Shown in pieces: positions 26,197 through 49,454 of a DNA stretch of 64,000 nucleotides (positions are counted from its first letter, which is position 1; every line of letters begins with the position of its first letter). The stretch is taken from assembly GCA_001899305.1 (NCBI GenBank), contig MKWL01000019.1, positions 1 through 64,000 of the forward strand, given 5' to 3'. The notes under the pieces are model-generated. The model had not been told where the DNA came from. It saw nothing but the letters and a program-made list of their open reading frames with translations, and did not search any database. This DNA is from Thiobacillus sp. 0-1251 (GTDB lineage: Bacteria > Pseudomonadota > Gammaproteobacteria > Burkholderiales > Thiobacillaceae). A program made the translations under genes and the position numbers.

Positions 26197-27648
26197 TCAG
26201 GCTGTCGCTCGCAGCAGATTACGCGAGATCGTGTAGCAGTGCAGGCTGGTTGGCATGAATTCAAGCTCCGTCGTGCCGTCGTTGCCCATACCGCTCACGC
26301 TCAAGGTGGTCACCAGCGGACGGCGAGCCAATTCGTGTTTCGCCGCGAACTCTCGCAGGCCACGCAATTCACCCCAATCCGTATAGGCCGCGTCGGACCA
26401 TTTGATCTCTACCGCAAAACGCGGCTTCAGCGTGCGGTTGTCGATCGACACCAGATCTACCTCCAGATCGGACCGACCCTGCTTCCAGCGTGCGTAATGC
26501 AGCGACTGGATCGTGCTGGTGTCGTGCAGCCACTGGCTCCACACGGCTGTTTCCGCCAGCGCACCCATGGCCGGATCGCTGGCTGCCGCGTAACCGAACA
26601 GCGCGGCGCGGATCGACGGGTTGGTCAGGTACACCTTGAACGTCCGCGCGCGCTGCATGCGGCGCGCCGTGTCATCGACCCGGTGCACCCGCTTGATGAG
26701 GTAAGCTGCTTCCAGGTACTCTAGGTAATCGAGCAGTTTCTGCTTGGCGATACCCGTATCCTTGGACAGCTTTTCCGGACTTAGCTCATCGCCGGTGTTG
26801 TAGGCCAATACATTGAAGAAGCGGTTCAGCTCCTGGGTGTCGCCGATGCCGTACAGGCTGGGCAAATCCTTCAGCAACACCTTGTCCACGATGTCCTGAC
26901 GCAGAAATCGGGTCGGATTCTCGCGCACGGCCGGATTCATCACCGCCTCCGGGAAACCACCGTAATTCAGGTAGTTCACGAACTCGGCATTCAGCGCCTC
27001 GATGCTGGGCGCGCGATAGGCTGGCGCGCGGCCGGCCGCGACCGGTTCCTCGGCGATCAGCGCCGCTTCCCGCCCCGCGAAGGCTAGGTACTCCGAGAAG
27101 GTCAGCGGCGGCAGCACGAAATCGGTGAAACGACCCGCGCCCGATTCACGGCTCTTCATGCGCAGCGCCGCCGCCGCCGAACCGCTGGCGACGAAGCGGA
27201 CGGCCCGGAAGGTATCTACCAGCGATTTGAGATGCACCTCCCAATCCTTCAAGTACTGGATTTCGTCGAAGAACACCCACAACCGTTGCCCGTCGCCGTG
27301 CCTGTGCAGTTCCATGAACGTCCGTACCAGGCTTTCCAGCGAGCGGCCCGAATACAGTGGCGTATCCAGCGACACATACAGGATGGTGCTGCCGGTCGTG
27401 CCCTTGTCCAACAGCGCCTGCACGGCATGCGCCAGCATCACCGTCTTGCCGACCCGGCGCGGGCCGATCAACACCACCGCGCGCGGCACCTCGACGGCCT
27501 CGACCAGTTGTATGAAGGGTGCGAAATACGCCCGGCGCGGCCAGTCCCGGCGCTCGGTGTCGATGCCGCCGCCCGCCATCCACCACGGGTTGTCGAACGC
27601 CAGCCGCTTTTGAACGTCCGCCAGGGGAATCTCGAAGGGCTTCGCCAT
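26197..27648 (-). CDS. ATP-binding protein, AAA_14/DUF4143 type
   Basis: A 483-residue P-loop ATPase: Walker A G-P-R-R-V-G-K-T (about residues 63-70), Walker B-like L-W-V-F-F-D-E-I-Q-Y-L, sensor-like V-A-S-G-S, then a DUF4143 region (about 270-430) with F-A-V-E-I-K-W-S-D, a D/E-x-K-like pattern that may be a degenerate nuclease fold. Proteins of this kind are widespread and of unknown role; many are linked to mobile or defence regions. Here it lies downstream of the broken MmeI-like gene and DinD, in the same direction. The leader of about 90 bp is AT-rich, unlike flanking genes. Confidence 0.85.
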   Translation of the reverse strand: MAKPFEIPLADVQKRLAFDNPWWMAGGGIDTERRDWPRRAYFAPFIQLVEAVEVPRAVVLIGPRRVGKTVMLAHAVQALLDKGTTGSTILYVSLDTPLYSGRSLESLVRTFMELHRHGDGQRLWVFFDEIQYLKDWEVHLKSLVDTFRAVRFVASGSAAAALRMKSRESGAGRFTDFVLPPLTFSEYLAFAGREAALIAEEPVAAGRAPAYRAPSIEALNAEFVNYLNYGGFPEAVMNPAVRENPTRFLRQDIVDKVLLKDLPSLYGIGDTQELNRFFNVLAYNTGDELSPEKLSKDTGIAKQKLLDYLEYLEAAYLIKRVHRVDDTARRMQRARTFKVYLTNPSIRAALFGYAAASDPAMGALAETAVWSQWLHDTSTIQSLHYARWKQGRSDLEVDLVSIDNRTLKPRFAVEIKWSDAAYTDWGELRGLREFAAKHELARRPLVTTLSVSGMGNDGTTELEFMPTSLHCYTISRNLLRATA

Positions 27649-27740: not shown

Positions 27741-30545
27741 TTACACCGTCGCCTTAGTCGATTTTCCGCGCCGTTTGGCGGGCTTCTCGGTCGGCAGCAA
27801 CGACGTCAGCGCCTGGTAGCGCTGGAACAGGAAGGCCACCCGCTCGGCGTCGGACTTGAAGCCGGTCTTGCCGTAAGCCTTGTCCACAGCGGCGTCGAGC
27901 TTCTGGTGCGCTTTCAGCAGCACGGGCGGCATCGTCAGCGGGTCGTAGAGGTCGGCGAGCGAGGCGCCGGGGAATTGCGCGCGGGCGTCGAGCACGGCCT
28001 GGGTGGCGGTTTCGATGGCCTGCCGGGTCTTGTCGGCGGGTGCGTCGGTTCCACTTGCGGTGCAAGAAGAACATGAAGGCCAGGGAAAGGTGTTGTAAAC
28101 CATTGTCCCGGAGTATTGGTAACGACTCTCCAAACGCCCAGCAACTGCTCGAATCCACGCCATATGCATCGCCGATTGCAATATGCCGAGTAGATAGCGG
28201 CTATCGCTTTGCACCAAATACAGCTTGTTACTCGCAATGACATTGGGCGGAAGCAAACCTAGTGGCACGTACATCCGCCGTTCCGATGAGACTTCAGGGA
28301 TGGCGATATATTCGGTCGTTGGTTGTGACTGAAAAAAGAAGCGGGTTGGCGTTGCGGCTGCTCGACGCGTTGGTTCGGCGGAACTCGCCTGCCGGAATTT
28401 TTTGACGCCTTCAATTCGTTCCATCACCAGCGGCAGGCGACGCAACATCTCGGGTTTTACGTCAGCGAGCCACAGACACCAACGAGGATTGCCGTTAATA
28501 AATTCTTCAGAGCCGACATAAGGAAGCAGGAATGGTTTGGCCAAGGGTTCTGCGGAGACAAGCTCGTCATACTCTTCCTGCTTGAGGATGAGATGACCTC
28601 CGTCACTCGGCTTGCTGCCGCAAGTCATCCTTGGTACTTGCACGAGCGGGCGTTGGCGCTTTTCGATTACGACATCAGGCGCAAATGTCAGGTATGGGCT
28701 GATATTGCCATCTACGACAGCATGCGGCTCCGACTTTGGATGCTCGTACTCAAAAATCGTCTTTTGCTCAATATCGAACGAACCAAAACCAATGATGACG
28801 CAATGTACTGCTGCTAAGCCGCGCGCCTCATTACTCCATTGGAAGGTGCGGTGTGCAAAGTGAATCTTGATTCCATATTGTCCCAATAGTAGCGACCAGA
28901 GCAGAGGGACTTGCTCGCCTTGGGTAATTGAATTTGTTGAAACAAAAGCGCAGCGAATAGCCGAGCCTGCGATAAACCTCGCCGTCTTGATGTACCAGGC
29001 GGCTACAAAGTCGAGATCGGAAGCGGCTTTCATCCCGTGGAAAGCCGCAACAAGATCCGCTTTCTGCTCCTTCGATTGGTAATGCTTTCCAACAAACGGC
29101 GGGTTGCCCATGATGTAGCTCGCCCGCTCTGCGGGCAGCACCTCGTTCCAGTCGAGCGTGAGCGCGTTGCCGTGGACGATCTTCGGGCTGGTCTTCAGCG
29201 GAATGCGGGCGAAATACATGCCGAATTCCTCGCTGACCTTGAGGTTCATCTGGTGGTCGACCAGCCACAGCGCGACCTGGGCGATCTGGGCGGGGAACTC
29301 CTCGATCTCGATGCCGTGGAACTGGTCGACGTCGATGGAGAGCAGCTGGAAGATGTCGATCAGCGACTACTTGAACTCGCGCTCCAGTGCGAGCGAGGCG
29401 CGCAGGATGTCCAGTTCCAGCAGGCGCAGTTCGCGGTAGGCGATGACGAGGAAATTGCCGCAGCCGCAGGCGGGGTCGAGGAAGGTGAGCCCGCGCAGCT
29501 TCTTGTGGAACTCGAACAGTTTGTTGCGGTTCTTCTTCACCTTGTCGAATTCGGCCCACAGCGCGTCGAGGAACAGCGGCTTGATGAGCTTGAGGATGTT
29601 TTCCTCGCTGGTGTAGTGCGCACCGAGGTTGCGCCGCGCCTGCCGGTCCATGATGCTCTGGAACAGCGCGCCGAAGATGGCCGGCGAGATCGCGCTCCAG
29701 TCGAGCGCGCAGGCGTCGAGCAGCGCCTCGCGCATGGCCGAGTCGAAATCGGCGATGGGGATGGCTTCCTCGAACAGGCGGCCGTTGACGTAGGGGAAGG
29801 CGGCGAGCTGGTCGTCCAGCGCCTTGCCGCGTTTGGCGTCCGGCGTATTCAGCACCTGGAACAGCTGGGCCAGCAGGGGACCGAGGTCGGAGCCGTCTTC
29901 GCGGGTACGTTCCTCGATGTAGGTGCGCAAGGCCTGCGCCGGCTGGAAGATGCCGGTGTCGTCGGCGAACAGGCAGAACAGCAGGCGCACCAGCAGCACT
30001 TCGAGCGCATGGCCATCGAAACCGCTGGCCTTGAGCGCGTCGTGCAGCCGCCCCATGCGCTCGGCAGCCTGGATGTTGACCGGGTTTTGCGGCTTGATCT
30101 CCTGCGTTTCGTAGCCGGCGACGAAGCCGAAGTGGCGGATGTGCTTGTGCAGGTCCTTCAGCGCGAATTCGCGGGTGTCGCCGGTTTCCAGGTCGTAGAG
30201 GCGGAAGCGGGCGAAGTCGCACACGACGATGTGGCGCGGCAGGTCGCGTTCCTTGATGCCGGGAAAGTAGTCCAGCGCCTGATTAAAGGCGCGATCGAGG
30301 TTCCTGCCCCGCGACTTCTGCTCCACCAGCAGCACGCCGGGCCAGAACAGGTCGACGTAGCCCTGGCCGCCGCCGAATTTCTTGACTGCGTGCTCGAAAG
30401 TGGCGACGCGCTTGTTGGTGATGCCGAAGATTTCGAAAAAAGCGATCCAGAACGGCTTGGCCTCGCTGGCCTCATCGGCAGCGTCGGCCCATTCGCGCGA
30501 GAACGATAATGCGCGGGATTTGATCTCGTTCCAGGAAAGCGGCAT
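27741..30545 (-). pseudogene. MmeI-like restriction-modification enzyme, interrupted by an amber codon
   Basis: One reading frame spans 935 codons with a single TAG at 29367-29369 (codon 393). The N-terminal half has a PD-(D/E)XK-like nuclease pattern D65, E75-x-K77 in a V-D-L-F-W-P-G-V-L-L-V-E-Q-K segment, then an alpha-helical spacer and SAM motif I, D-P-A-C-G-C-G-N-F (about 357-365). The downstream half resumes in the same frame with F-H-G-I-E-I-E-E-F-P-A-Q-I-A, motif IV N-P-P-F, a target-recognition region and a C-terminal tail. This order matches the MmeI family of fused type IIG/IIL enzymes. The TAG splits the methylase domain, so neither part should work. One CAG-to-TAG change would restore a typical residue. 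Sequencing error cannot be excluded. Confidence 0.85.
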
Positions 30546-30550
30546 GACTG

Positions 30551-31441
30551 CTATTTGCCCGTTCCCTTGTTGTTTGCCTTGTCTCCCAACAAACCACCCG
30601 CGTCGCGCTCGTCCAGTTTCAGCTTAGGCGTGGCGGCCCTGAGGCGTTTTTCCACTTCCTTGATGTGTTCGGCGACAGGGATGTTCTCTGGGCGTTCGCC
30701 GCCAATGCGTTCAATCGCGGCGCGGACTTCCTTCCCGACCTGTTCGTGGGTACGAATGGCCTGCTGCTGATCGCGGATGCCTTCTCGTGCCAGTTTGTCC
30801 CGGGTTTGGGTCATGCGGAACTGGTTGGCGGCAAGTTCAGTGGCGTTCATCCGATCCATCAGTTGCTCTTTGGCTGGGACACCCTTTCTGGTCTTGATTT
30901 GTTCATTACCCAGGCCTCCGTAAAGGCCTTTGTAGCCGGCGTCGTGAAAAATACCGAACATGCGGTTTTGCACGCCGGCCTGTCGGGCGGCGCCGGATAG
31001 CGCCTTGAATTCTTCTGAAGTCTGTTTGCGCAGTTCCAGACGTTCCATATCCGAGGCGAGCTGCTCGGACAGTTCCTGGCGCCGGGTCTGGATGGCGAAG
31101 TATTTCTGGGCTTGGGCGATTTCCGGCTTGCGCGGGTCGCCGTTCTGGGCGATGAGGTAACAGGCGAAGCGGGAAAGCTGGTAGTCCTGTACGACTTGGA
31201 CGGCACCCTTGCCACCCGTTATCGGTTTGCCGGCGCCGGCAAAGTGATGCTCGGGATTGTTTCCTGATTGCTCACAAGAGGTTATGGCTCGATTGATGGC
31301 GTCTTCAAATCGTCGCCACTGGCTGTAGCCTAGTAGAGGCTGCAGATCGCGAGCGCTCCAGTACTCGGCGCCGTGGTCGTTGACCTGTTTGAGGTTTTCG
31401 AAGGATTGCCCGCCAATGCTTGGCAGTTCTTTTTTTGCCAT
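30551..31441 (-). CDS. dinD: DinD-family DNA-damage-inducible-type protein
   Basis: A 296-residue protein matching Din[14 protein letters not shown]-x-x-W-R-x-F near the N-terminus (a Bro-N/KilA-like domain), [20 protein letters not shown]-x-x-I-A-x-A-Q-x-Y-F-A-I-Q-T-R, and G-I-F-x-D-A-G-Y-x-G-L-Y-G. In E. coli, DinD inhibits RecA filament activity and is SOS-induced. A strong ribosome site (GAGGAGGAGG) precedes the ATG. No LexA box is visible in the 56-bp gap to xth. It is followed after 5 nt by the MmeI-like gene. Confidence 0.9.
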
Positions 31442-31497
31442 GTTGTTCCTCCTCCTCTTCCCCTTTGGGTTGTCTCGATTGTTTTCGGCGTAAGGGG

Positions 31498-32277
31498 TTA
31501 CGGTGCGTAATCGTAATCGACAATCAGCGGCGCATGGTCGGAAAAGCGCTGGTCCTTGTAGACGCTGGCGGAGGTGGCTTTGGCGGCGATGCCGGGAGTG
31601 GCGATCTGGTAGTCGATGCGCCAGCCGACGTTCTTGGCCCAGGCCTGGCCGCGGTTGCTCCACCAGGTGTAGGCCTCGCCGGTATGCTCGGGGTAGAGGT
31701 TGCGGTAGACGTCGACCCAGCCGAGCTCGTCGAACAGGCGCGTCATCCAGGCACGCTCCTCGGGCAGGAAGCCGGAGTTCTTCTGGTTGGATTTCCAGTT
31801 CTTGAGGTCGATTTCCTTGTGGGCAATGTTCCAGTCGCCGCAGATGATGATTTCGCGGCCGGACTGGATCAGCGCCTGGAGGCGCGGGAAGAAGACGTCG
31901 AGAAAACGGAACTTGGCCTGCTGGCGTTCGTCGCTGCTGGAGCCGGAAGGCTGGTAGAGCGAGATGACGGCGAGATGGCCGTAGTCGGCCTCGATGTAGC
32001 GGCCTTCGGCATCGAATTCCGGGATGCCGAGGCCCTCGATGATGCGCTGTGGCGGCTGGCGGGTGTAGACGCCGACGCCGCTGTAGCCCTTCTTCTCGGC
32101 GTAGTGGAAGGCGCCGCTGAGGCCGCCGCAGGCTACGAATTCCGGCCTGAGGTCGGCGGCCTGCGCCTTGAGTTCCTGCACGCAGACGACGTCGGCATGT
32201 TGCGTGGGGAGCCAATCGAAAAAGCCCTTGGTGGCGGCGGAGCGGATACCGTTGAGGTTGGCCGATATAATTCGCAT
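31498..32277 (-). CDS. xth: Exodeoxyribonuclease III
   Basis: A 259-residue AP endonuclease/3'-5' exonuclease of the exonuclease III family. N-terminal [11 protein letters not shown], catalytic metal-binding E in Q-E-L-K (Q-E-x-K), [16 protein letters not shown] and terminal S-D-H-A-P-L motifs are intact. Used in base-excision repair. ATG at 32277; a TTG immediately upstream is ignored. Confidence 0.95.
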
Positions 32278-38824: not shown

Positions 38825-39321
38825 ACGTGTCGACCCAGTCCGGCAGCAGCTGGCGTCGCATTCTCGGCAGCCTGGTTCTGGCGGTCTTGCTGGAGCAGTT
38901 GCCGTGGTCCGGCTGGGCGCTGATCGTGCGGCCGGATTTCGTGCTGGTCGCCGTGCTCTTCTGGGCCTTGCACCAGCCTGAGCGCATCGGTTTCGGCGTG
39001 GCGTTCTTTTTCGGCCTGCTGGCCGATTTCCAGGATGGCGCAGTGTTCGGCCAGCATGCCATCGCCTATGCGATCGGAGTGTACGTGGTGTTGTACCTGC
39101 GTCTGCGCCTGTTGCAGTTCGACCCCTCCCGGCAGGCCGCGCAAATGTTTCCGATCCTGCTGGGCGTGCAGTTGATGGTGTTGCTGGTCGGTTGGCTTGC
39201 GGTCAATCCGCCGGCTGGATTGAGCATCCTCATTCCGGTGCTGGGCAGTACCGTGCTGTGGTATCTGATCGCGCTGTTCGTGCGCCTGTGGCATGGCAAG
39301 GGTGCCCAGGACCGGGCATGA
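38821..39321 (+). CDS. mreD: Rod shape-determining protein MreD
   Basis: A 166-residue integral membrane protein with about five helices. P-D-F-V-L-V-A-V-L-F-W-A-L-H-x-P-E-R-I-G-F-G-V-A-F-F-F-G-L-L-A-D-x-Q-D-G-A-V-F-G-Q-H-A-x-A-Y is the diagnostic stretch. Coupled by ATGA to mreC and followed closely by mrdA. Confidence 0.94.
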   Translation: MNVSTQSGSSWRRILGSLVLAVLLEQLPWSGWALIVRPDFVLVAVLFWALHQPERIGFGVAFFFGLLADFQDGAVFGQHAIAYAIGVYVVLYLRLRLLQFDPSRQAAQMFPILLGVQLMVLLVGWLAVNPPAGLSILIPVLGSTVLWYLIALFVRLWHGKGAQDRA

Positions 39322-39328
39322 GCCAGAC

Positions 39329-41224
39329 ATGCCGCTAGCCACGCCGCTCAAAAACCTGGATCGTGAACTGGCCCGTTTTCACGGGCGGCTGAAAGCGGGC
39401 GGAATCTTCGTCGTGCTGCTCGCGGCTGCGCTGCTGGGGCGCACCTTCTATCTGCAGATCACGCAACATGACTACTATATCCAGCGCGCGGAAAACAACC
39501 GTATTTCGCTGGTACCCGTGGCGCCCAACCGCGGATTGATCCTGGATCGGAAAGGCCGCATCCTGGCGGAGAACTACTCGGCGTATACGCTCGAACTGGC
39601 GCGGGCGCAGCCCCACGATCTGGAAGCCACCCTGACCGAAGTGGCCAAGCTGATCGAGATCACGCCGGGCGAGTTGCGGCGTTTTCGGCGCCTTCTCGCT
39701 GAATCGCACGAGTTCGAAACGGTGCCCCTGAAAAGCAAGCTGACCGACGAAGAGGTCGCGATCCTGGCGGCCAACCGCTACCGCCTGCCGGGGGCGGAAG
39801 TGAAGGCGCGGCTGTTCCGCAACTATCAGGCCGGACCCGGCATGGCGCACGTGGTCGGCTTCATTGGCCGGATCAATGATCGCGATCTCAAGAGCCTGCG
39901 GGAATCGGGGCGGGAGCAGAACTATCGGGGCACGGTCCATATCGGCAAGACCGGGCTGGAGCAGAGTTACGAAACCCTGCTGCATGGCCGCACCGGATTC
40001 GACCAGATGGAGACCGACGCCAGCGGCCGCGCCGTACGCGCCTTGTCGCGGATTCCGCCGGTGCCGGGCAAGGATTTGCGCTTGTACCTGGACGAAGGGC
40101 TGCAGGCGGTGGCCGAACATGCGTTTGGCGACTACATGGGCGGGCTGGTGGCGCTCGATCCCAATACCGGCGGCGTGCTGGCGCTGGTGAGCAAGCCGGG
40201 ATTCGACCCCAATCTCTTTATCGACGGCATCGACCCGGAAACCTGGAAGACACTCAACGAATCGCCTGAGCGGCCGATGGTGAACCGCGTGCTGCGCGGC
40301 ATCTATCCACCGGGCTCGACGATCAAGCCGTTCATGGGACTGGCCGGACTGGAACTGGGCGTACGCAAGCCCGAGGACACCATCGTCGACCCCGGTTATT
40401 TCAGCTTGCCCAACAGTAGCCACCAGTACCGCGACTGGAAACGCGGCGGCCATGGAATCGTCGATCTGCGCCGGGCCATCGCGCAATCGTGCGACACCTA
40501 TTTCTACAAACTGGCGGTCGATATGGGGATCGACCGCATGCACGACTATCTGCAGAAATTCAGTTTCGGCGAGAAAACCGGCATCGATCTGGATGGCGAA
40601 TCCGCCGGCCTGCTGCCTTCGCGCGAATGGAAGCAGCGCCGCTGGAAGAAAGTCTGGTATCCCGGCGAGACGGTGATCGCGGGCATTGGCCAGGGCTACC
40701 ATCTCACCACACCGCTGCAACTGGCGACCGCGACCGCCATGATCGCCAACGGCGGCAAGCGGATCGAACCGCGCCTGGTGCAGGCGGTACGCGACCCGCT
40801 TACCCACGTCTGGCAGCCGCAGCCGGTAGTGGTGCACGAACAACTGCCGCTCAAACCGGAGGATCTGGCCGTGGTGCGGCAGGGCATGTTGGACGCGATG
40901 CGGCCGGGCGGTACGGCCGCGGCCGCAGCTGCCGGCGCACCCTACACCATTGCCGGCAAGACCGGCACCGCGCAGGTGGTCGGCATCAAGCAGGGCGCCC
41001 GCTATGACGCTGGCAGCCTGTCCCGGAAAAATCGGGACCATGCGCTGTTCATTGCCTATGCGCCGGCCGAGAACCCCACCATCGTGGTGGCGGTCATGGT
41101 CGAGAACGGCGGCCATGGCGGCTCCACGGCGGCGCCGATTGCGCGTGCGGTCTTCGATTACTACCTGACCGGGAAACGCCCCGGTAACATGAAACTGGAG
41201 GGAGGAAGCGATGCCTCGGACTAG
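39329..41224 (+). CDS. mrdA: Penicillin-binding protein 2 (peptidoglycan DD-transpeptidase MrdA)
   Basis: A 631-residue class B PBP: N-terminal membrane anchor (about 24-42), pedestal domain with P-V-A-P-N-R-G-L-I-L-D-R-K-G, and a transpeptidase domain. The active-site S330-T-I-K333 (G-S-T-I-K-P-F), S387-C-D389 (the S-x-N position carrying D, as in PBP2) and K-T-G-T-A are all present. It is the elongation-specific transpeptidase working with RodA. The ATG at 39329 is used; an upstream in-frame start would overlap mreD. Confidence 0.95.
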   Translation: MPLATPLKNLDRELARFHGRLKAGGIFVVLLAAALLGRTFYLQITQHDYYIQRAENNRISLVPVAPNRGLILDRKGRILAENYSAYTLELARAQPHDLEATLTEVAKLIEITPGELRRFRRLLAESHEFETVPLKSKLTDEEVAILAANRYRLPGAEVKARLFRNYQAGPGMAHVVGFIGRINDRDLKSLRESGREQNYRGTVHIGKTGLEQSYETLLHGRTGFDQMETDASGRAVRALSRIPPVPGKDLRLYLDEGLQAVAEHAFGDYMGGLVALDPNTGGVLALVSKPGFDPNLFIDGIDPETWKTLNESPERPMVNRVLRGIYPPGSTIKPFMGLAGLELGVRKPEDTIVDPGYFSLPNSSHQYRDWKRGGHGIVDLRRAIAQSCDTYFYKLAVDMGIDRMHDYLQKFSFGEKTGIDLDGESAGLLPSREWKQRRWKKVWYPGETVIAGIGQGYHLTTPLQLATATAMIANGGKRIEPRLVQAVRDPLTHVWQPQPVVVHEQLPLKPEDLAVVRQGMLDAMRPGGTAAAAAAGAPYTIAGKTGTAQVVGIKQGARYDAGSLSRKNRDHALFIAYAPAENPTIVVAVMVENGGHGGSTAAPIARAVFDYYLTGKRPGNMKLEGGSDASD

Positions 41225-42311
41225 CCATTGGCTCCTGCGCGGCCTGCACCATGTCGACGGCATCCTGCTGACGCTGGCGCTGCTGGTGCTGGGCATCAGC
41301 CTGGCGGTGGTGACGAGCGCCTCGGGGCAGAGTCCGGTACGCATCAGCGGCCACCTGGTCAACATCGGGCTGGCGCTGGCGGTGATGGTGTTGATGGCCA
41401 ACGTGCCGCCGCACCTGCTGTCAAAAGTCGGGCCGCCCCTGTATGCGGCGGGCGTGGTGCTGCTGGTCGGCGTGGCGCTGTTCGGCGAGATCCGCAACGG
41501 TGCGCGCCGCTGGCTGGATCTGGGATTCATCGCGTTTCAGCCGTCCGAGCTGTTGAAGCTGGCCTTGCCGCTGATGCTGGCCTGGTATTTCCAGCGCAAC
41601 GAAGCGGTGCTGCGCGCCAAGCATTTCATGGTCGGCGGCATCCTGCTGCTGGTGCCCTTCCTGCTAATCCTGCGACAGCCTGATCTGGGGACGGCGCTGA
41701 TGCTCGGCGCATCGGGGTTTTATCTGCTGTTCTTTGCCGGTCTGCCTTGGAAGGTGATTCTGGGAGGCGCCACGCTGGGCGCGGCGAGTCTGCCCGTAGT
41801 GTGGGGGCTGATGCATGACTATCAGCAGCGCCGCGTGCTGATGCTGCTCGATCCTGCGTCCGATCCGCTGGGCGCGGGCTATCACATCATTCAGTCGACC
41901 ATCGCCATCGGCTCCGGCGGACTGTTCGGCAAGGGGTGGATGCAGGGTACGCAGAACCAGCTCGATTTCATTCCCGAGCGCACCACCGATTTCATCTTCG
42001 CCGTGTTCGGCGAGGAATTCGGCTACGCCGGCGCGATTCTGCTGGTGTGCCTCTATCTGGCCATCGTCGCGCGCGGCCTGGTCATCGCCGCGCGGGCGCC
42101 GACGCTGTTCGGCCGGTTGATGGCGGCCACCCTGAGCCTCAATCTGTTCACCTATGTGTTCGTCAACATGGGCATGGTGTCGGGCATCCTGCCGGTGGTC
42201 GGTGTGCCTTTGCCGCTGATGAGTTACGGCGGAACGGCGCTCGTCACGCTGCTGCTGGGGATGGGTATCCTGATGAGCGTAGCGACGCATCGCCAACTCA
42301 ATAAATCATGA
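41211..42311 (+). CDS. rodA: Rod shape-determining glycosyltransferase RodA
   Basis: A 366-residue SEDS-family protein with about ten membrane helices, the peptidoglycan polymerase of the elongasome. Motifs include A-R-R-W-L-D-L-G-F-I-A-F-Q-P-S-E-L-L-K, R-Q-P-D-L-G-T-A-L-M, P-E-R-T-T-D-F-I-F-A-V-F-G-E-E-F-G and G-x-P-L-P-L-M-S-Y-G-G-T. The catalytic Asp in P-E-x-T-x-D-F is present. Overlaps mrdA by 14 nt. Confidence 0.95.
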   Translation: MPRTSHWLLRGLHHVDGILLTLALLVLGISLAVVTSASGQSPVRISGHLVNIGLALAVMVLMANVPPHLLSKVGPPLYAAGVVLLVGVALFGEIRNGARRWLDLGFIAFQPSELLKLALPLMLAWYFQRNEAVLRAKHFMVGGILLLVPFLLILRQPDLGTALMLGASGFYLLFFAGLPWKVILGGATLGAASLPVVWGLMHDYQQRRVLMLLDPASDPLGAGYHIIQSTIAIGSGGLFGKGWMQGTQNQLDFIPERTTDFIFAVFGEEFGYAGAILLVCLYLAIVARGLVIAARAPTLFGRLMAATLSLNLFTYVFVNMGMVSGILPVVGVPLPLMSYGGTALVTLLLGMGILMSVATHRQLNKS

Positions 42312-42329: not shown

Positions 42330-43148
42330 ATGAAAACTAAATCGCTCCTGGGGATGATTGTCCTCGCCCTGACCCTCGGCGGATGTGCCAGCACGCCGCC
42401 CGCAAAACAGGCCTCCACTGCCCCCAAAGGCGGGGGCTATTACCTCGACGATGGCCCGGAGGCCAATCCGCCGGCAAATCTGGATGCCGTTCCCGACGCT
42501 GTGCCGCGCAAGGAACCCTTGCATCCCTTTGCCAACCGCACCTATGTCGCGCTGGGGACGACGTATACGCCGCAGACCACGCGCCAGCCCTACAGCGAGG
42601 AAGGGCTGGCCTCGTGGTATGGCCGCCGTTTCCAAGGCAAGAAAACTTCCTCGGGCGAGCCCTACGACATGTACGCCATGACGGCTGCGCATCCGACCCT
42701 GCCGATTCCGAGCTACGCGCGGGTCACGTCGCTCGACACCGGCAAATCGGTGGTGGTACGCATCAACGATCGCGGGCCGTTTCACAGCAAGCGCATCATC
42801 GACCTGTCGTATACCGCGGCCTACAAGCTGGGGTACCTGGGACGCGGTAGCGCCCGGGTGCGGGTGGAAAGCATCGACCCCGACACTTACGATACGCAGG
42901 GCAAGGCGTTACAGGATGGTATCTACCTCCAGGTGGGCGCTTTCTCGCGTGCCGACAATGCGCAACAGTTGCTCGACCGCCTGAAACGCCAGCTCGACAT
43001 CGACGCCAGCCAGACGCGCGTGGTGCTGGATGGCGGGTTGCATCGCGTGCAGCTCGGCCCGTATGCCAATGACGATGCAGCACAGTCGGATCGTGCGCGC
43101 GTGCGGGAACGCCTCGACCTGAATGCAGTCCTGGTCAAACGCGATTGA
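42330..43148 (+). CDS. rlpA: RlpA septal-ring lytic transglycosylase-type lipoprotein with SPOR domain
   Basis: A 272-residue lipoprotein: lipobox L-G-G-C (Cys about 19), a double-psi beta-barrel RlpA domain (about 88-180, with G-L-A-S-W-Y-G-R-R-F-Q-G-K-K-T-S-S-G-E-x-Y and N-D-R-G-P-F), and a C-terminal SPOR domain (about 193-268, Y-L-Q-V-G-A-F). The catalytic-type E and D positions (S-G-E, N-D-R-G) are kept. It should bind denuded glycan strands at the septum. Its stop touches the first ATG of the next gene. Confidence 0.93.
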   Translation: MKTKSLLGMIVLALTLGGCASTPPAKQASTAPKGGGYYLDDGPEANPPANLDAVPDAVPRKEPLHPFANRTYVALGTTYTPQTTRQPYSEEGLASWYGRRFQGKKTSSGEPYDMYAMTAAHPTLPIPSYARVTSLDTGKSVVVRINDRGPFHSKRIIDLSYTAAYKLGYLGRGSARVRVESIDPDTYDTQGKALQDGIYLQVGAFSRADNAQQLLDRLKRQLDIDASQTRVVLDGGLHRVQLGPYANDDAAQSDRARVRERLDLNAVLVKRD

Positions 43149-43162
43149 TGAAAAGGCTGAAC

Positions 43163-44278
43163 ATGAAATTCTTCTGGCTGGGGCTGGCACTCTTGTTTAC
43201 AGCAACGACATGGGCCGCTCCGCCCAATGTCTCGTCGCGTGCCTGGGTCGTGATCGACCAGGCAAGCGGGCGCGAGTTGGCGGCCAGCCAGGCCGACCTG
43301 CCGTTGGCCCCGGCTTCGCTGACCCAGCTGATGACAGCCTATGTTCTGCTGGGCGATATCCGTAAGAACAAGCTGAGCCTGGGCGAGATGGTGACCGTGC
43401 CGGCGGCGGCCACCCAGATGGATGGTGCGCGCGTCTTCCTCAAGGCGGGCGACCAGGTGAGCGTCGATACGCTGCTGCAGGCGATGCTGGTGGAATCGGC
43501 CAGCGATGCCACGATTGCGCTGGTGACGGCAGCGGATGGCAGCGAAGCCGCGTTCGTCGCGCGCATGAACCGCGAGGCCAAGCGACTGGGCATGAGCAAG
43601 ACTCGCTTCATGAATGCGACCGGTCTGAATGCGCCAGGCCATGAATCGAGCGCACGCGACCTCGCCTTGCTCGGTCGCGCACTGGCGCGCGATTTCCCGG
43701 AGCGGCTGCCCTTCTTCAGCCAGAAGGAGCTGCCTTACAAGGGCGTCACGTACTACAACGGCAACCGACTGTTGTGGCGCGACAGCACCGTGACCGGCCT
43801 GAAGGTCGGGCGTACGCCGCAGGCCGGCTATTGCATGGCGGCTTCGGCGCAGCGCGGTGACCAGCGCCGCATCGCGGTGGTACTGGATGCACGCTCGGAT
43901 GCGCAGCGTACGCAGGATGCGTTGAAGCTGCTGAATTACGGTTTCGAGAATTTCGACAGTGTGCCGCTTTATCGGGCTCGCCAGGCCGTCAAGGTCATCA
44001 ATATCTACCGGGGCGAGCGCCCGTCGGTGAGTATGGGGTTCGAGCAGGATTTCCATCTGCTGGTCCCGCGAGGCAGCGCCGCACGCGTCAAGGCGGAAGT
44101 CATCACCCGGCAACCCATTGTGGCACCGATCAACAGGGGGCAGCGCCTGGGTACCCTGCGGCTGACGCTCGACGGCAAGTCGATCGGCGACTATCCGCTG
44201 GTCGCCCTGGAGGATGTCGGCGTGGCCGGCCTGTTCGGCCGCGGCTGGGATTCGATCCGGCTGCTGTTCGCAAAATGA
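43163..44278 (+). CDS. DacC/PBP5-family protein lacking the catalytic motifs (probable pseudoenzyme)
   Basis: A 371-residue exported protein (signal 1-18) with the fold landmarks of S11 D-Ala-D-Ala carboxypeptidases, including the C-terminal PBP5-like domain and amphipathic tail (about 350-371). All three active-site motifs are altered: S-x-x-K is S52-L-T-Q55 (TCG CTG ACC CAG, 43316-43327), S-x-N is S112-A-S114, and K-T-G is K214-V-G216. The nucleophile Ser stays but its general-base Lys is gone, so carboxypeptidase activity is not expected. It occupies the usual dacC slot between rlpA and dat. The ATG at 43163 has AAGG 6 nt upstream; the ATG at 43148 (overlapping the rlpA stop) is also possible. 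Confidence 0.85.
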   Translation: MKFFWLGLALLFTATTWAAPPNVSSRAWVVIDQASGRELAASQADLPLAPASLTQLMTAYVLLGDIRKNKLSLGEMVTVPAAATQMDGARVFLKAGDQVSVDTLLQAMLVESASDATIALVTAADGSEAAFVARMNREAKRLGMSKTRFMNATGLNAPGHESSARDLALLGRALARDFPERLPFFSQKELPYKGVTYYNGNRLLWRDSTVTGLKVGRTPQAGYCMAASAQRGDQRRIAVVLDARSDAQRTQDALKLLNYGFENFDSVPLYRARQAVKVINIYRGERPSVSMGFEQDFHLLVPRGSAARVKAEVITRQPIVAPINRGQRLGTLRLTLDGKSIGDYPLVALEDVGVAGLFGRGWDSIRLLFAK

Positions 44279-45138
44279 GCGTCTACCTGAACGGACAGTT
44301 CCTGCCGCTCGCCGAAGCGAAGGTGTCGGTGCTCGACCGTGGCTTTGTCTTTGGTGACGGCGTCTACGAACTGGTCCCGGTGTATTCGGGGAAACCCTTC
44401 CGGCTCGACGCGCACCTGCGTCGCCTGCAGTTCAGCCTCGACGGCATCCGCCTGGCCAACCCGCACAGCGTGGGCGAGTGGCGTGAGCGCATCCTGCAGT
44501 TGATCGCGCAGCAGGATTTTGCCGACCAGTCAGTCTACATTCAGGTGACGCGCGGCACGCCTGCCGAAGGACAGCCTCTGCGCGACCATGCCTTTCCATC
44601 CAATGTGTCGCCGACCGTGTTCATGTTTGCACAGCCGCTGGTGACCGCCACGTCGGCGCAGAAGGCTGCCGGCGTCTGTGCCGTCAGCGCGGTCGACAAC
44701 CGCTGGCTGCGCTGCAACATCAAGGCCATTTCGCTGCTGGCCAATCTCCTGCTGCGCCAGCAGGCGGTGGACGCGGATTGCGCCGAAACCGTGATGCTGC
44801 GCGACGGCTTCCTGACCGAGGGTGCGGCGAGCAATATCTTTGTGGTCAAGGACGACGTGCTGCGTGCGCCGCCGCCGTCCAGCCTGATGCTAACCGGCAT
44901 TACCTACGACGTGGTGCTGGAACTCGCCGCTGCCCACGACATACCGCACGAGGTGCGGGCGATTACCGAAGCCGAGGTGCGTGGCGCCGACGAACTCTGG
45001 ATGACCTCGTCCACCAAGGAGATCATGGCGATCGTGGCACTGGACGGCGTGCCGGTCGGCGCCGGCGTACCGGGGCCGCTGGCCAGGCGGATGGATGCGC
45101 TGTACCAGACCTTCAAACAACAGGTGATGCGGTCATGA
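44275..45138 (+). CDS. dat: D-amino-acid aminotransferase, PLP class IV
   Basis: A 287-residue fold-type IV transaminase. V-Y-L-N-G-Q-F, V-S-V-L-D-R-G-F-x-F-G-D-G-V-Y-E, the PLP-binding Lys in R-C-N-I-K-A-I-S-L-L, and T-E-G-A-A-S-N-I-F are typical. It should interconvert D-Ala and other D-amino acids with alpha-keto acids, feeding peptidoglycan. A branched-chain or aminodeoxychorismate lyase role is less likely given the R-x-H-x-x-R-L segment. Overlaps the dacC-like gene by 4 nt. Confidence 0.88.
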   Translation: MSVYLNGQFLPLAEAKVSVLDRGFVFGDGVYELVPVYSGKPFRLDAHLRRLQFSLDGIRLANPHSVGEWRERILQLIAQQDFADQSVYIQVTRGTPAEGQPLRDHAFPSNVSPTVFMFAQPLVTATSAQKAAGVCAVSAVDNRWLRCNIKAISLLANLLLRQQAVDADCAETVMLRDGFLTEGAASNIFVVKDDVLRAPPPSSLMLTGITYDVVLELAAAHDIPHEVRAITEAEVRGADELWMTSSTKEIMAIVALDGVPVGAGVPGPLARRMDALYQTFKQQVMRS

Positions 45139-45401
45139 GTGAACAGGAAACCCTGCTGCAATTCCCCACCGACTTTCCCATCAAGATCATGGGTGAACGC
45201 CGCGACGATTTTGCGCAGACCATGGTCGAGCTGGTGCTGAGGCATGCGCCTGATTTCAAGGCCGAGACCGTCGAGATGCGCGTATCCAGCAGCGGCAACT
45301 ACCTGTCGGTGACCTGCGTGGTGCGCGCCACCTCGAAAGCCCAGCTCGATGCGCTGTATCGAGAAATCACCGCCCATCCGTGGGTGAAGATGGCGCTTTG
45401 A
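45135..45401 (+). CDS. ybeD: YbeD/DUF493 family protein
   Basis: An 88-residue ACT-like protein: [11 protein letters not shown] near the start, the V-x-x-S-S-x-G-N-Y-L-S-V-T segment in the middle and H-P-W-V-K-M-A-L at the end. Usually found next to lipB; suspected allosteric role, not proven. Overlaps dat by 4 nt and lipB by 1 nt. Confidence 0.92.
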
Positions 45402-46039
45402 TGGCGAGCGGTGAGCAGCAAGCGGTGAGCGGCGAGGCGATCATTCGGCTACTGGGCCAGGTCGACTATATTTCGACCTGGCGGGCGATGCAGATTTTCA
45501 CCGCACGGCGTGCACCCGATGCCGCGGACGAAATCTGGCTGCTTGAACATTTGCCTGTCTACACGCAGGGTCAGGCCGGCAAGCCGGAGCACCTGATCGC
45601 CGCGACCGACATTCCCGTCGTGCCAATCGACCGCGGCGGGCAGATTACCTATCACGGCCCGGGACAAGTCGTGGTCTACGTGCTGATCGACCTGCGGCGG
45701 CGTGGCTACGGCATCCGCGAGCTGGTGACACGCCTGGAACAGGCCGTGATCAATCTCCTGGCGGAGCAGGGCGTGGCATCCGCACGCCTGGGAGGCGCGC
45801 CAGGCGTGTATGTCGATGGCGCGAAAATAGCCGCACTCGGCCTGCGCGTCAGACACGGCTGCACGTATCATGGCCTGGCGTTCAACGTCGACATGGATAT
45901 GCGTCCGTTCGCCGCCATCAACCCGTGTGGCTACGCGGGGATGCGGGTGACGCAATGTCGCGATCTCGGCCTGAAATGGTCTCCAGCCGAAGCCGGACAG
46001 GCGCTTGTCCGCTGCCTGCAGGACACGATCTATTCTTGA
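45401..46039 (+). CDS. lipB: Octanoyl-[acyl-carrier-protein]:protein octanoyltransferase
   Basis: A 212-residue LipB, moving octanoyl groups from ACP to lipoyl domains. [12 protein letters not shown] (about residues 74-85), the catalytic Lys in G-A-K-I-A-A-L-G-L, and the catalytic Cys in N-P-C-G-Y are present. ATG at 45401 overlaps the ybeD stop (TGATG), which sets the start despite no strong ribosome site. lipA lies 1.6 kb downstream, past two other genes. Confidence 0.94.
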
Positions 46040-48560: not shown

Positions 48561-49403
48561 CTACGGCATCGTCCGACGGCGCCCCATCCAGAGCAGGGCG
48601 GCGATACCGAGCGCCATCAATCCCATCATCGACGGTTCCGGTACGGCATGAGGCTGAGTGGCTGCTTGCTGGCCTGACGGCGGGCCGAGGGGGGTGTCCG
48701 TCTGGGGCGGCGTCCACGAACCGGGGCCGGCTGCGGGGAACGGGTTCGGCGGCATGTTGCCGCCCGGTGCTTCGTCGGGCGATGTCGGCGCCCAGGGTGC
48801 ACCGGGTCCTCCGGTCGGGCCCTTATGCTCGGGTGAGTGCGGGCCGTCTGGAGGTGGGGTGGAGGGGCCGTTTGCCTGGGGCGGGATGGCGGGGCTGCCT
48901 TGCGGCTTCCCTGCAGGAAGGAAAGATCCGTCGCCGGGCGGGATGCCGGCGGGCTCGCCCGATGGTGGATGCGACGGCGCCAAAGGACGCGCTCTGTCAG
49001 GTTTGCCGCCCGGCGCGCGGTCCGGGCCCCGCATGCCGTGTTCCATACGGTCAGGCGCCGCCTCGTTGCCGGCAGGATTGCCGGGTGACGGCCCGGTGAG
49101 GATGAATGGGTCCAGGTTGCCGCCGTCTGCAAAATCGCTCTCGGCCATGACAAGCGAGAGGGTTTCCCCCTTGTGTTCGATGGCGAGCGGATGCAGGCGC
49201 TGCTTCGCGACAAAGTGAGGTGTGACGACGGCAGGCGACGTGGGCCTGGCGTGGTCCAGATGGAGTGCCAGCCCCCCGACCAGGGCAGCGGCGGTGACCG
49301 TGCCTATCAGAATGCCGGCCGGCGTGAGTGCCGTGGCGAGCAGCAGACCAAGCAGTCCGATACGACGGGTGCGGGCGCGTGAAGCGGAGGGTTTGCGGGA
49401 CAT
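48561..49403 (-). CDS. Proline/glycine-rich PEP-CTERM surface protein
   Basis: A 280-residue protein. Basic N-terminus and hydrophobic region (about 14-48) form a long signal or anchor, the middle (about 85-250) is low-complexity and rich in P, G, S and D, and the C-terminus is a PEP-CTERM sorting tag: V-P-E-P, a transmembrane run (M-M-G-L-M-A-L-G-I-A-A-L-L-W-M) and G-R-R-R. The tag is the substrate signal for exosortase A, encoded at 62921. I use the ATG at 49403 because the TTG at 49442 would lie upstream of a sigma-54-like promoter. No ribosome site is evident. Confidence 0.85.
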   Translation of the reverse strand: MSRKPSASRARTRRIGLLGLLLATALTPAGILIGTVTAAALVGGLALHLDHARPTSPAVVTPHFVAKQRLHPLAIEHKGETLSLVMAESDFADGGNLDPFILTGPSPGNPAGNEAAPDRMEHGMRGPDRAPGGKPDRARPLAPSHPPSGEPAGIPPGDGSFLPAGKPQGSPAIPPQANGPSTPPPDGPHSPEHKGPTGGPGAPWAPTSPDEAPGGNMPPNPFPAAGPGSWTPPQTDTPLGPPSGQQAATQPHAVPEPSMMGLMALGIAALLWMGRRRTMP

Positions 49404-49422
49404 GGCGAAGATCTGGAGGAGA

Positions 49423-49454
49423 AATTGCGAATGACTTCGCAATTCCCGTACCCG
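49423..49454 (-). promoter_or_regulatory. Sigma-54-like -24/-12 promoter with overlapping inverted repeat
   Basis: Read on the minus strand from 49453, GGGTACGGGAATTGCG has the -24 GG and -12 GC of sigma-54 promoters exactly 10 bp apart, with ACG and TTGC matching consensus TGGCACG-N4-TTGC. A perfect 9-bp inverted repeat (AATTGCGAA, 4 nt, TTCGCAATT; 49423-49444) covers the -12 element. Predicted start near 49427 leaves a 24-nt leader to the PEP-CTERM ATG. Confidence 0.5.

Follow-up and report, generated by a model that had tools for sequence, protein, structure and literature searches.

Within the 64,000-nucleotide stretch of Thiobacillus sp. 0-1251 DNA that was analysed (the window), a forward-strand open frame at positions 43163-44278 encodes a 371-residue protein that domain and homology matches identify as a probable DacC (PBP5-type) pseudoenzyme of native lineage. 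The nearest named records to the window come from a metagenome-assembled genome (MAG) labelled T. denitrificans (99%) and from T. thioparus DSM 505 (95%). On the same strand lie genes that look to encode a PBP2 (MrdA)-like protein (39293-41224, matched in a homologue search) and a RodA-like protein (41211-42311) upstream, an RlpA-like protein directly upstream of dacC (42330-43148) and, downstream, a Dat (D-amino-acid transaminase-like) protein (44275-45138), whose gene shares 4 bases with the end of the dacC frame, and a LipB-like protein (45380-46039). This is the standard rlpA-dacC-dat-lipB slot that the initial annotation had recognized, and a homologue search found the RlpA-DacC-Dat order of the rodA-rlpA-dacC-dat slot at 53 of the 54 pseudoenzyme loci; the one remaining locus has another gene order, and exactly one Dat match was found at every one of the 54.

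The protein begins with a signal peptide, assigned by eye, at residues 1-18 (MKFFWLGLALLFTATTWA; 43163-43216), followed by the penicillin-binding fold of domain I (residues 19-262; 43217-43948), which matches the Pfam family Peptidase_S11 (PF00768) over residues 17-244 with an E value of 6.5e-64, by the beta-rich PBP5_C stalk of domain II (residues 264-352; 43952-44218), which matches PF07943 over those same residues (E 1.8e-19), and by a C-terminal segment (residues 353-371; 44219-44275) that resembles a membrane anchor, a role suggested by that of PBP5. R360, W362, D363 and L367 of this segment are present in active copies too. The earlier observation that the fold, the signal peptide and the C-terminal domain are well kept is borne out by the two Pfam matches and, for the signal peptide, by inspection. 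Type-5 low-molecular-weight PBPs, among them E. coli PBP5 (DacA) and PBP6 (DacC) and P. aeruginosa PBP5, are MEROPS S11 members, and like them the window protein has two domains, a signal-like N-terminus and a C-terminal anchor-like end. In a phmmer comparison, the solved chain 4k91_A, which is P. aeruginosa PBP5 (PMC9320039), matched residues 18-354 with 262 bits. By its S11 fold, seen with Pfam and with phmmer to solved PBP5-type chains, and by its PBP5_C domain, the protein is of the DacC/PBP5 type, yet it matches none of S-x-x-K, S-x-N and K-T-G, and it scores below the NCBIfam equivalog cut-offs for PRK10001 (DacC; 269 bits against 765), DacD (266 against 610) and DacA (252 against 694). 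By descent it falls in the native Thiobacillaceae DacC lineage, being nested in the family tree and occupying the same operon slot. An AlphaFold model built from seven alignment rows reached a pLDDT of 44.6.

What sets the window protein apart from type-5 PBPs is its active site, which was read directly from the intact, full-length frame. S-x-x-K has become S52-L-T-Q55 (43316-43327; PASLTQLM, residues 50-57), S-x-N has become S112-A-S114 (43496-43504; VESASDAT, residues 110-117) and K-T-G-H has become K214-V-G-R217 (43802-43813; GLKVGRTP, residues 212-219), and alignment with active copies places Y-Y-N-G at residues 197-200 (43751-43762) where those carry Q-x-N-R. The S-L-T-Q, S-A-S and K-V-G of the initial annotation are therefore confirmed, while its description of all three motifs as lost is accurate for one key residue in each (K to Q, N to S and T to V) and too strong for Ser52, Ser112, Lys214 and Gly216, which are kept.

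An open native-locus dacC could be read in 53 of the 56 Thiobacillus genomes, and the key Lys, Asn and Thr are absent from all 53 copies. A check on whether relatives share the Q, S and V substitutions thus found genus-wide absence of the key residues, with some variation in what replaces them: position 55 is Gln in 52 copies and His in one; position 114 is Ser in 36, Gly in 11, Val in three, Thr in two and Ala in one; position 215 is Val in 45 and Ala in eight; and position 217 is Arg in 51 and His in two. Other positions conserved in active copies are gone as well, namely R200, E122 and Y182 in all 53, Q197 in 52, H217 in 51 and D211 in 45, further likely ligand positions among them. R200, T215 and H217 correspond by alignment to Arg198, Thr214 and His216 of E. 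coli PBP5, which are its substrate-carboxylate ligands. S52, S112, D166, K214, G216 and R249 are invariant throughout, and so, over the whole protein, are 94 of the 371 columns; the codons for S112 (TCG in 45 copies, TCC in five, TCT in two and TCA in one) and for K214 (AAG in 37 and AAA in 16) show synonymous turnover.

All 56 Thiobacillus genomes match the window protein, and 55 hold the native copy when split and partial ones are counted. The motif counts leave out G036, which has only a C-terminal piece of native dacC, and G034, an 81% complete genome in which native dacC was not found. The copy of G019 (L062, on G019:C126), in a MAG-like assembly that is 70% complete, is the one case found in the genus of a gene broken across two frames and was left out of the column, tree and dN/dS sets; the break may reflect either an error or real decay. 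The 53 rows were first picked by Gln or His at position 55 and then recounted by locus, and they comprise all native-locus copies extracted, none having been lost by that choice. Six public records (L033-L038) were excluded from the column counts, as they share contig positions with genus genomes already counted. One of these, L034 (JAIBEL010000032.1), is a MAG labelled 'Rhizobium sp.' that carries a Thiobacillus pseudo-DacC with 94% identity at contig positions 5048-6160, the same as in genus genome G030, and the 'Rhizobium' label looks wrong. Because the motif losses are common to all 53 open copies, they are real rather than the product of chance or error. An assembly or sequencing artefact was rejected, its probability being negligible: identical losses recur in 53 independent genomes, that of the culture-collection strain T. 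thioparus DSM 505 (L035) among them, and no points in favour of an artefact were found.

In other genera of the family, native DacC has SxxK and SxN in all 57 copies read (from 57 of 61 genomes), the third motif being KTG in 56 of them and KSG in the other; the remaining four of the 61, which gave low-scoring matches (G058, G064, G099 and G115), lie outside this count. As placed by these alignments, the loss of catalytic residues is ancient and fixed, sits on the genus stem and, as far as could be seen, would be confined to Thiobacillus. The proposal of a recent loss does not survive this comparison, since every open genus copy shares it and no intermediates were found among the 53 genus copies or the 57 from other genera. 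A DNA-pattern screen for SLTQ in 399 genomes of the order, a partial screen that misses many codings and the SLTH variant, returned six matches, of which four were Thiobacillus and two (L149 and L154) lay in unrelated sequence, and convergent SLTQ elsewhere in the order was set aside for that reason.

A genome search for an active paralogue, suggested at the outset, found a motif-intact second DacC (P0002) in 55 of the 56 genus genomes, the exception being G027, which is 75% complete. SLTK, SGN and KTG are present in all 56 second-copy genes read, which cover all 55 genomes with a match. One genome, G054 (79% complete, 6% contaminated), holds two intact second DacC genes with full motifs (L213 on G054:C124 and L103 on G054:C99) and could be a mixed bin. 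The second copy occupies the rlpA-dacC-dat slot at none of 21 loci and at 18 of them adjoins a pyrD-like gene. The window genome also encodes a protein that we take to be PbpG-like (SITK/SDN/KTG) and a Peptidase_S13 protein, and with these and the intact DacC its DD-peptidase capacity remains.

The two DacC proteins have different histories. Compared with 4k91, the second copy reaches 541 bits. All 31 genomes in the genus of G633 have a gene that is 64-68% identical to it, whereas its identity to the native copy of the same genome is 41%; the label 'Pseudomonas-type' given to it rests on 4k91 being P. aeruginosa PBP5. A 61-row tree built without the nine lost columns, which included nine of the 53 pseudoenzymes, 12 of 36 family copies and six of 22 second copies, placed the pseudoenzyme clade inside the native family DacC, with genus g12 as its neighbour (99/94). 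The second copy joined G633 of family f180 in that tree (100/100). In AU tests, forcing native and second copies together cost 81 log units (p 0.00012), and forcing the second copy into the family cost 123 (p 4e-5). An earlier quick tree, in which every sequence came from within the order and the intact copy accordingly fell there too, is superseded by the wider tree and these tests. On this phylogeny the intact second DacC is very probably a xenologue of foreign origin, read as a single horizontal acquisition before the genus diversified. Duplication of one gene within Thiobacillus, followed by divergence, would agree with the co-occurrence of the copies, each of which is found in 55 of the 56 genomes (split and partial native ones included), but the AU test against pseudoenzyme and second copy as one clade rules it out, and the second copy is far closer to Pseudomonas-type DacC than to the native copy beside it; a duplication of this kind is given next to no chance. 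Thus the idea that the loss is covered by a paralogue is right in that an intact second DacC is present, and wrong in that the gene is a xenologue of Pseudomonas type rather than a duplicate.

The dN/dS comparison that had been suggested gave about 0.09 for the pseudoenzyme, near the active orthologues. Under a GY codon model, the maximum-likelihood omega (best score) was 0.087 for domain I and 0.091 for domain II, while the 20 native active orthologues gave 0.076 and 0.087, and the second copy gave 0.055 and 0.112; with seven rows each, the values were 0.100 and 0.102 for the pseudoenzyme and 0.089 and 0.091 for the sister genus g12. The pairwise dN/dS and domain sets drew on 20 of the 53 pseudoenzyme genomes, and the native set consisted of 20 of the 36 family copies, hand-chosen without g12, which was added as the seven rows. 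Nei-Gojobori (NG86) estimates over 190 pairs from 20 genomes gave a median pairwise omega of 0.23 for the pseudoenzyme against 0.27 for the second copies of those genomes, with values of 0.07-0.19 in the eight closest pseudoenzyme pairs. The ratio of domain II to domain I distances is 1.24 (1.12-1.38) in the pseudoenzyme and 1.28 (1.21-1.39) in native active copies, so the dead domain is held as tightly relative to the stalk as the live one. The pseudoenzyme omega is marginally above that of active orthologues in every codon-model comparison, and constraint on pseudo-DacC is slightly weaker than on live orthologues, yet close to it. A division of function had at one point been read from domain II, whose distance ratio is 2.02 in the intact copy against 1.24 in the pseudoenzyme; it was dropped because the controls (3.95 in Pseudomonas-type and 1.28 in native active copies) mark a fast domain II as a habit of the lineage. 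In the Pseudomonas-type DacC of 30 genomes (L155 and L176-L204), the mean distance is 0.24 in domain II and 0.06 in domain I, a roughly fourfold difference in rate; in native Thiobacillaceae DacC the factor is 1.28.

These values bear on whether the gene is a slowly decaying relic, one made redundant by the incoming foreign copy and preserved solely by its place in an essential operon. Drift in several active-site columns, the split copy of G019 and an omega slightly above that of active orthologues are what a relic would display, but an intact frame in 53 of 56 genomes, an omega of about 0.09 where active native orthologues have 0.076-0.091, and 94 invariant columns make it very unlikely. As the term is defined in PMC10211241, a pseudoenzyme is without conserved catalytic motifs and homologous to active enzymes, and the window protein would answer to that description; purifying selection, a criterion added by this analysis, is also seen.

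The reading that we favour, with moderate confidence, is one in which an ancient, fixed pseudoenzyme coexists with a foreign active DacC and the native protein has been kept as a non-catalytic partner. Its parts differ in strength. Native origin combined with loss of the canonical chemistry appears very likely from the sequences, some retained function of pseudo-DacC is likely, if slightly less firmly so, and the choice of an adaptor or scaffold over some other function is evenly balanced. In the course of events that the sequences support, a Pseudomonas-type dacC with all motifs intact entered the genome elsewhere before Thiobacillus diversified; the native elongation-operon dacC was stripped of the key residue in each motif (the lysine of SxxK, the asparagine of SxN and the threonine of KTG) and of several positions that probably bind substrate, and it has been kept under about the same overall constraint as active orthologues. 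That gain preceded loss is what we infer, since both events fall on the same stem. The protein would be exported, and its C-terminal helix would tether it to the inner membrane on the periplasmic side, with domain II holding it clear of the membrane. From family chemistry, canonical acylation should fail without the SxxK lysine, so pseudo-DacC would be expected neither to trim pentapeptides nor to react with beta-lactams, and the foreign DacC is predicted to do the carboxypeptidase work. Most likely, pseudo-DacC would contribute without catalysis, serving either the PBP2-RodA-RlpA machinery or the foreign DacC as a scaffold or regulator, and other proteins of the elongation complex would require its tethered fold and stalk; the case for such an adaptor comes from the constraint on the gene, its operon setting and precedent elsewhere. 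The initial annotation had proposed a pseudoenzyme with a binding or structural role. Genus-wide loss, an intact frame and dN/dS near 0.09 support a retained role as far as sequence can, whereas the additional loss of the carboxylate ligands of E. coli PBP5 casts doubt on binding at the usual D-Ala-D-Ala site. Several observations sit less comfortably with an adaptor: none of the 53 copies has given up Ser52, Ser112 or Lys214, residues that an adaptor could do without, the pseudoenzyme omega lies a little above that of active orthologues in each comparison, and one genome (G019) has a split copy.

The kept residues leave room for two readings in which the pocket itself still works. Pseudo-DacC might be a substrate decoy that binds pentapeptide stems uncut and shields some from the active DacC, tuning the pentapeptides that reach PBP2, and the invariance of S112, K214, G216, D166 and R249 in 53 copies would suit such a role; the D-Ala carboxylate ligands of PBP5 (Arg198, Thr214 and His216), however, are replaced in 53, 53 and 51 of the 53, and the SxN Asn position is free to vary (S/G/V/T/A). 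Dead PBP5 and PBP6b are described as strongly affecting cell shape in E. coli, and dead PBP6a(S66A) as being without such an effect (PMC4916385). Weakened by the lost ligands, the decoy is possible, though unlikely. Alternatively, Ser52, Ser112 and Lys214 may constitute a Ser-Ser-Lys hydrolase acting on another substrate, with Gln55 helping to position the nucleophile. No S11 enzyme is known to work without the SxxK lysine, helix capping and packing may be what retains the Ser and Lys residues, and the variation at positions 114, 200, 211 and 215 resembles that of a relaxed pocket; what makes a rewired enzyme possible is that Ser52, Ser112 and Lys214 are unchanged in all 53 copies despite synonymous codon turnover, with Gln55 in 52. 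Pseudoenzymes with migrated catalysis do exist (PMC10211241). We regard such rewiring as rather unlikely, and as distinctly unlikely in the specific form of a repurposed serine hydrolase that gave up the SxxK lysine and would use a Gln55-held Ser52-Ser112-Lys214 on a new, beta-lactam-blind substrate of the elongation machinery.

For the favoured non-catalytic partner, work on E. coli is cautionary, as a dead DacC is not automatically useful there. PMC4916385 describes inactive PBP5(S44G) and PBP6b(S63A) that did not restore shape and made it worse, and a PBP6a(S66A) without effect, and PBP5(S44G) is described as losing its midcell localisation, for which PBP5 depends on its anchor as well as on an unimpaired active site (PMC2909392); this makes it less likely that a dead DacC would be localised by the same means. 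E. coli PBP6a is itself portrayed as a DD-CPase that seems to lack activity and might protect pentapeptides (PMC4916385). The window protein resembles it in being a DacC-type protein beside active ones, PBP6a showing little or no trimming in that account, but solved PBP6 (3it9) keeps SLTK, SGN and KTG, whereas in the window protein the chemistry is lost at the sequence level. Closer in logic, if not in fold, are DipM and the LytM regulators, described as dead peptidoglycan peptidases that dock to and activate autolysins, with the degenerate site within the docking groove (PMC10336132). Both cases involve a catalytically dead peptidoglycan peptidase that has been kept, its regulator role being known in LytM and proposed here; unlike the window protein, whose domains are S11 and PBP5_C, LytM proteins have an unrelated (degenerate) M23 metallopeptidase fold, known partners and a role in division. 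Helicobacter pylori Csd2, which is described as pairing with Csd1 and as having an incomplete set of metal ligands (PMC5053510), is likewise a degenerate homologue beside an active one in a cell-shape context, and differs in its M23 fold and in forming a heterodimer with its active partner.

Dead peptidoglycan peptidases turned regulators are known for M23 (LytM) proteins, and no report of a dead DacC/PBP5-family regulator was found among the papers listed from the open-access literature searched, subscription papers lying mostly outside its scope; the papers listed likewise yielded no expression or phenotype data and nothing on this Thiobacillus gene. The route suggested here is one in which, with the arrival of a foreign active copy, the gene already present in a shape operon loses its chemistry while selection on it continues. 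Since catalysis and any other role appear to lie on separate genes in Thiobacillus, roles of type-5 PBPs beyond trimming become directly testable there.

Elsewhere in the window, two adjoining reverse-strand frames at 27741-30545 resemble the halves of one large gene that we take to be of DNA methyltransferase-type restriction, and nearby lie a frame that is presumably AAA ATPase-like (26197-27648) and a presumably DinD-like stretch within a frame at 30551-32215; the region may be a small defence island in which one gene is broken. Downstream of the operon, a reverse-strand gene at 48561-49442 encodes what we take to be a PEP-CTERM-like protein, with the end VPEPS...ALLWMGRRR, and near it, at about 53-64 kb, lies a gene cluster that looks to be of exopolysaccharide type.
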